Source of the DNA: Bacteroidales bacterium
GTDB taxonomy: Bacteria > Bacteroidota > Bacteroidia > Bacteroidales > UBA1402
DNA: 43,825 bases
Direction of reading: 5' to 3'
Assembly (NCBI GenBank): GCA_017958305.1
Contig: JAGDCW010000048.1
Coordinates: 1-43,825, forward strand
Shown here in pieces: positions 4 through 765 of the stretch; position 1 is the stretch's first letter; each line of letters begins with the position of its first letter. The notes under the pieces are model-generated. The model saw only the letters and a program-made list of their open reading frames with translations. It was not told the DNA's origin and did not search any database. The translations under genes were made by a program, and so were the position numbers.

Positions 4-131
4 GCAATAAGTCAGTACGTTATGAAACCGTGGCCGCCCGTGGCCTCGTGAGCGGGAGGGACCCGCTGGCGTTAGCCAGTGGGAGGGATAGGACCGAAGG
101 TCCGTAGTTTCAGAACGTACTGACTTATTGC
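4..131. repeat. Palindromic element with 18-bp perfect inverted ends (MITE-like or structured RNA)
   Basis: Bases 4-21 are an exact reverse complement of 114-131. After one mismatch (22 against 113) the pairing resumes for six more bases (23-28 with 107-112). Inside the long stem lie a 9-bp hairpin with a GTTA loop (62-70 with 75-83, one G-T pair), a 5-bp hairpin with a GAA loop (91-95 with 99-103), a direct repeat CCGTGGCC (28-35 and 38-45), and two GGGAGGG tracts (54-60 and 81-87). The element contains no convincing reading frame. It lies 25 bases beyond the ribE stop codon, so it could be transcribed as part of that 3' end. It resembles a miniature inverted-repeat element or a folded non-coding RNA. 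Only one copy is seen here, and any target duplication would lie outside the window. Confidence 0.7.
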
Positions 132-156
132 TTTGAATATACCTTTCGCAGCGCTA

Positions 157-765
157 TTATTCCTTGGAGAGCTGGATCATGCGGCTGATGTACTTGCCGA
201 CGATGTCAAACTCCAAGTTGACCACTGTGCCCACTTCGATTTGCGAAAAATTGGTGTGATCGTGGGTATAAGGGATGATGGCCACCGAAAAGCGGTCTTT
301 TTCCGAGTCGCAGACCGTCAGGCTGACCCCGTTCACGCAGACCGACCCCTTCTCCACCGTCATGTAGCCCTGACGGGCCATCTCCGGATCAAAGATATAT
401 TCAAAGGTGTAGCGCCAACTTCCTTCTGTCTCCTCGACATCGGTGCAGACGGCCGTCCGATCCACGTGGCCCTGTACGATGTGGCCGTCCAGGCGTCCGT
501 TCACTCGCATGCTGCGCTCCAGGTTGACCAGATCGCCCACCTGCAAGAGTCCCAGGTTGCTGCGGTCGAGCGTTTCCTGCACGGCAGTGACGGTGTACTC
601 GTCACCCTTGATATCCACCACCGTCAGGCAGACCCCGTTGTGGGCCACACTCTGGTCGATGGTCAATTCATTGGTAAAGGAGCAACTGAGCGTCAGATGC
701 AGATTGCCCTCCTCCCTTTTCAGGCCGGTCACCCTGGCCGCTTCTTCCACAATTCCTGAAAACAT
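157..765 (-). CDS. ribE: Riboflavin synthase, alpha chain
   Basis: This 202-residue protein matches the usual length of riboflavin synthase, which dismutates two 6,7-dimethyl-8-ribityllumazine molecules into riboflavin and a pyrimidine in the last step of riboflavin synthesis. It begins MFSGIVEE, the typical N-terminus, and consists of two similar lumazine-binding barrels. The paired motifs are HNGVCLTVVD near residue 43 and VNGVSLTVCD near 145, with QGHVD near 98 starting the second half. The ATG at 765 fits the family start exactly. The gene is transcribed leftwards away from tRNA-His and appears monocistronic in the window. A -7-like box lies 22-29 bases upstream. The palindromic element at 4-131 follows its stop codon. 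Confidence 0.96.
   Translation of the reverse strand: MFSGIVEEAARVTGLKREEGNLHLTLSCSFTNELTIDQSVAHNGVCLTVVDIKGDEYTVTAVQETLDRSNLGLLQVGDLVNLERSMRVNGRLDGHIVQGHVDRTAVCTDVEETEGSWRYTFEYIFDPEMARQGYMTVEKGSVCVNGVSLTVCDSEKDRFSVAIIPYTHDHTNFSQIEVGTVVNLEFDIVGKYISRMIQLSKE

Follow-up and report, generated by a model that had tools for sequence, protein, structure and literature searches.

It is generally known that miniature inverted-repeat elements (MITEs) carry terminal inverted repeats and are flanked by a target-site duplication, and part of the comparison made with them here leans on this common background. The BrickBuilt MITEs of Porphyromonas gingivalis are non-coding, intergenic, multi-copy sequences with inverted ends (PMC4596501). 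REP units, of 20-40 bp with a GTAG or CGTC tag, together with BIMEs and their RAYT transposases, form a second system of extragenic palindromes, in which hairpins and opposite-orientation pairs lie downstream of genes (PMC3733652). Small inversions at hairpins or short inverted repeats, by which spacers are flipped and arms are homogenised, have been described in yeast (PMC8604942) and in chloroplast trnH-psbA (PMC2903610), and in the yeast study both effects are ascribed to template switching between the repeats. Rfam, finally, holds structured RNAs with conserved, covarying pseudoknots.

How does a short palindrome at one end of a Bacteroidales contig compare with these systems? The stretch analysed, called the window below, is 43,825 nucleotides long. 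Unlike those of the BrickBuilt elements and of MITEs in general, the ends here differ between loci, the interior contains a covarying pseudoknot and flips, and no parent insertion sequence was found. The segment that is inverted is the conserved core of a mobile element, not an arbitrary spacer as in yeast and chloroplasts. In Rfam, neither the window (E up to 1) nor the long-form copies (E up to 2) match any family, and a literature search by sequence strings and terms found no description of the elements, which apparently form a family of small, non-coding mobile elements of Bacteroidales that has yet to be described. We think it probable that they are non-autonomous mobile elements whose core functions as a single strand, and whose arms are homogenised and spacers flipped by template switching.

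The palindrome beside ribE and its relatives

The window starts at position 1 of contig C14 of its own genome (G000), an assembly of 184 contigs that is 82.5% complete, and the palindrome lies at its very beginning (Table 1). A preliminary description had drawn it as 18-base exact arms, one mismatch and six more pairs, with hairpins nested inside and no protein-coding signal; alignment of the arms gives exactly this arrangement over 25 nt (mismatch 22/113), and the stretch from 4 to 131 is indeed non-coding. A search of the 43.8-kb window for inverted repeats whose separated arms measure 15 nt or more and lie within 400 nt returned this one and no other. The RNA fold of 1-140 on the + strand reaches -73.6 kcal/mol against -42.2 +/- 3.8 for shuffles (z -8.2), and the opposite strand gives z -9.9. 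One of the two hairpins proposed earlier, that with the GAA loop, appears in this fold; that with the GTTA loop is missing from the minimum-energy structure but is supported by comparison of copies. The convergent neighbour, ribE, encodes a lumazine-binding-domain riboflavin synthase, and just upstream of it a tRNA gene lies on the opposite strand (907-980, +; Rfam tRNA, 64.5 bits).

Table 1. Features of the element and its immediate surroundings, in window positions
Feature	Positions	Strand	Sequence or basis
P0 left arm	4-28	+	GCAATAAGTCAGTACGTTATGAAAC; 96% complementary to 107-131
Conserved core	24-89	+	match to covariance model R1, 82 bits in the own-genome search (the window copy is within the model's eight sequences)
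S1, pseudoknot stem	32-45	+	GGCC 32-35 with GGCC 42-45; covariation
S2, pseudoknot stem	37-56	+	CCCGT 37-41 (in the S1 loop) with GCGGG 52-56; covariation
Hairpin P2	62-83	+	CCCGCTGGC-GTTA-GCCAGTGGG, then AGGGAT; covariation
Hairpin P3	91-103	+	GGACC-GAA-GGTCC; sequence varies between subfamilies
P0 right arm	107-131	+	GTTTCAGAACGTACTGACTTATTGC; complementary to 4-28
Direct repeat GAATAAT, one copy	156-162	.	ATTATTC on the + strand; the other copy is on C109, next to the TPM gene
ribE, riboflavin synthase alpha subunit, convergent	157-765	-	Pfam PF00677, two stretches, E 2.4e-44

Sequences matching the element occur in its own genome on contigs C109 (100% over 79 nt), C142, C96 and C120, in the genus mates G004 and G003, and in G040, which belongs to another family. 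The covariance model R1, built on the core from eight sequences including the window copy, finds copies in four of the six genus genomes: the own genome (C142, C96, C28, C109 and a fragment on C120, besides the window), G004 (13), G003 (2) and G001 (3), while the same search returned zero copies in G002 and G005. Six of 393 sampled genomes of the order, from four families, carry copies, among them G189 (13), G137 (6) and G040 (5), so that copy number reaches 13 per genome and the distribution is patchy. The element is thus neither solitary nor without homologues, and compensatory base changes among the copies were found as well. The earlier suggestion of either a mobile element or a conserved non-coding RNA turns out to hold on both sides together, through the copies, two clean empty sites and direct repeats on the one hand and the compensatory changes on the other.

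Carriage by phage or plasmid was dropped because our searches for such copies gave no match. A neighbouring gene as mobiliser was dropped also, since comparison of flanking ORFs found no family common to independent loci except ferritin, twice. The copies L096 and L113, which come from different families of the order, each sit immediately 3' of a ferritin-like gene.

Pairing in the conserved core

Covariance folding with aligned copies reveals compensatory changes in S1, S2 and P2. In S2, for example, the partners occur as CCCGT/ACGGG, CCCAC/GTGGG, CCCTC/GAGGG and TCCTC/GAGGA. Across eight copies, 97% of the cells of the pseudoknot and P2 are paired and eight pairs are changed on both sides, and if the partners are slid by 1-3 columns pairing falls to 34-50%. 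Three of the four S1 pairs are doubly changed in the first eight copies, and the alignment cannot have produced this covariation, because S1 was absent from the search model. Over 27 distinct copies of the wider set, 102 of 108 cells are paired in S1 (shuffle mean 85) and 123 of 135 in S2 (shuffle mean 104), and none of 5000 shuffles reaches either value; the shuffles ignore relatedness, so that these counts are support and not exact probabilities, and four rows in a shifted register (three from G004 C44, one from G376) make the S2 figure a slight underestimate. The aligned cores thus show, on the + strand, an H-type pseudoknot followed by P2 and a variable P3. Outer-stem mismatches, read on the core + strand, are 17 G.U against 5 A.C in a small sample of related sequences, and this asymmetry suggests that the core + strand acts as a single strand, either RNA or ssDNA. 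An additional module B of about 75 nt lies between the two halves of S2 in C109, C28 and in G004 C36, C77, C103 and C45; species differ in having or lacking it at orthologous loci.

A strand-specific structure, together with extragenic palindromes, hairpins, opposite-orientation pairs in G189 and the GTAG that follows P3 in some copies, recalls REP/BIME-type elements, which a RAYT (Y1) transposase moves by acting on hairpin ssDNA. This origin is largely refuted and we regard it as highly improbable, because a Y1_Tnp match is missing from nine of the ten genomes searched, among them G040, G137 and G189, which are 99% complete and carry 5-13 copies (G376 is the only one with a match), and because the units are about 100-200 nt instead of 20-40 bp, possess direct repeats and a pseudoknot core, and have no constant tag tetranucleotide.

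Empty and filled sites, arms and core orientation

The element inserts between genes, as judged by empty and filled sites. In G004, G003 and G002, ribE directly abuts a convergent TPM-domain gene and the element is absent. In its own genome the TPM gene sits at the end of contig C109 and runs into the same element, and both the end of C109 and the window align to adjacent parts of a single G004 stretch (L035 2484-4619 and 4610-8000, respectively) with a ten-base overlap. The guess made from the window that a repeat had broken the assembly there fits, as C109 breaks off within this element, where the core runs in the opposite orientation and the extra module is present. The empty site in G004 reads GGAATAATTGC, with a single GAATAAT, and the filled one reads GGAATAAT-AGCGCTGCGAAAGGTATATTCAAA-(element)-AGTCTATC-GAATAATTGC, with GAATAAT on both flanks. 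About 24 bp and 8 bp of this insert lie outside the arms, and the true ends of the element are therefore uncertain. At a second site, G004 C50 carries a related copy (87% identical) flanked by the direct repeat CAACA, where the own genome is empty on C168 (TTAGCAACAGTCTATC). A third locus, on C96, is occupied in G000 as well as in G004, whereas the more distant G003 has an empty site there; a probable 9-nt repeat, TGGTAATAA, flanks the element. Direct repeats are thus of 5 (CAACA), 7 (GAATAAT) and probably 9 nt (TGGTAATAA), a variation unusual for a DDE transposase, although some of these bases could be chance. Twelve bases, CAGTCTATCGAA, adjoin both the ribE-TPM insertion and the C50 site (L048 / L018 and the end of L013), and from this sequence the ribE insertion may have carried a flank from a C50-like donor.

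The location at the 3' end of ribE, as first described, is correct, whereas an attachment to ribE is contradicted by the relatives that lack the element there. The same empty sites bear on the idea of a cis-acting RNA, terminator or 3'-UTR regulator, which would have spread but be kept for its neighbours, inversion serving as an on/off switch. Copies do follow closely on stop codons or sit in the gap of a convergent gene pair, their single-strand structure is conserved, and both orientations appear in one population; however, almost every locus has different neighbour genes, the window hairpin is not followed by a T-run, and the R1 search gave no copy in G002 and G005, so that we hold such a regulator to be very unlikely. 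In the preferred account, of a mobile element, ribE would need no role from it.

The arms behave differently from the core. Left arms from 21 loci have a mean pairwise score of 10.2 against 9.3 after shuffling, while each scores 24-54 with its own partner; by these scores, an arm mostly has no relation to those of other loci but is complementary to its own partner. A common recombinase site, as in site-specific invertons of the Mpi/Tsr type, was looked for in the inverted repeats of these 21 loci, and apart from a few pairs the arms resembled one another no more than shuffled sequences do. Arm sequences are common to a few loci only (the window and C50, and sets of copies in G189, G040 and G137), which means that arms can move along with the element, and between orthologous loci the arms are the same. 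The 18-mer arm has just two exact single matches in 84,980 species genomes, both unrelated. A derivation of arms from the 3' ends of host genes was rejected, because the apparent coding tails in G001 C47 and C26 are open stretches of 31 and 16 codons and not genes. In G189, copies (L105, L107, L101, L111, L119, L120 and L095) show two arm types with common bases outside them, ATAAGTGSAG on the left and GGAAC on the right; the opposite-orientation pairs in this genome are roughly 50-125 nt apart.

Are these elements then simply ordinary MITEs, that is, internally deleted DDE insertion sequences whose arms are the terminal inverted repeats of several transposases and whose core is a passenger? 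Inverted arms, intergenic positions and small size agree with this, and terminal inverted repeats are present, with the direct repeats at ribE some bases outside them, as are target-site duplications at C50 and at ribE, of unequal length. Several transposases could explain the differences in arms and repeat lengths between subfamilies, and arms are common within subfamilies of one genome (G189, G040, G137). Against it, the window arms have no second match up to E 10 in their own 82.5% complete assembly and the 18-mer has only its two unrelated matches elsewhere, arms mostly differ between loci while the core flips, and a passenger core would not need a covarying pseudoknot. We consider ordinary MITEs unlikely.

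Flipping of the core is observed at two of three orthologous loci, where its orientation is inverted relative to the flanks. G000 and G004 C98 share flanks and arms at the C142 locus but carry the core in opposite orientations. For the C28 locus, G003 C11 aligns to G000 on the opposite strand along its flanks and on the same strand along its core, and G004 C77 has the arrangement of G003; the C96/C36 copies do not differ in orientation. At ribE the core is entered from its P3 end both by C109 and by the window, and since this is impossible on one chromosome with one locus, both orientations, one of them with module B, would occur in the sampled population; to judge from these contig ends, the population of the own genome apparently contains both. 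That the window and C109 represent one locus is supported by bases 1-3 of the window (ACT), which are the TPM-side flank in C109; alternatively, they may be two separate loci.

Inversion and movement of the element

Template switching as described in yeast would explain, with no need for a dedicated recombinase, why the arms match and the core flips, although the spacers here are roughly 80-150 nt and those inverted in the yeast study (PMC8604942) are far shorter. It leaves the covariation of the core and the movement of the element unexplained. In the account that we favour, window 4-131 would be a recent insertion of a non-coding, non-autonomous element, in which a long outer stem that differs between loci encloses a conserved core (about 60-80 nt), joined in some copies by module B. 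The folded core + strand, RNA or ssDNA, would be recognised by a mobilising enzyme, and inversion and arm matching would come from ordinary template switching of polymerases, not from a site-specific invertase. The elements may thus be parasites working through a folded RNA or a single DNA strand.

The variable lengths of direct repeats and the single-strand core leave a route based on RNA or on ssDNA open. A particular form of it would be a SINE-like retroelement, or RNA-driven mobile element, in which a reverse transcriptase provided in trans binds and copies a pseudoknotted transcript. Variable-length direct repeats, the rise of subfamilies with stems of their own and frequent inversion would all be expected of such an element, and we nevertheless rate this form as quite unlikely.

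If the favoured account is right, bacteria possess miniature elements in which a folded single strand, and not the ends, is conserved, and Bacteroidales have a route of mobilisation that uses neither a transposase matched to the ends nor RAYT. The elements would also record, in nature and at more than one locus, how palindromes drive inversion in bacterial genomes, and they would cause assemblies to break.

One further arrangement of copies was seen in G004, where C44 (L125 88-395) carries three tandem cores with a common arm sequence near the end of the contig.
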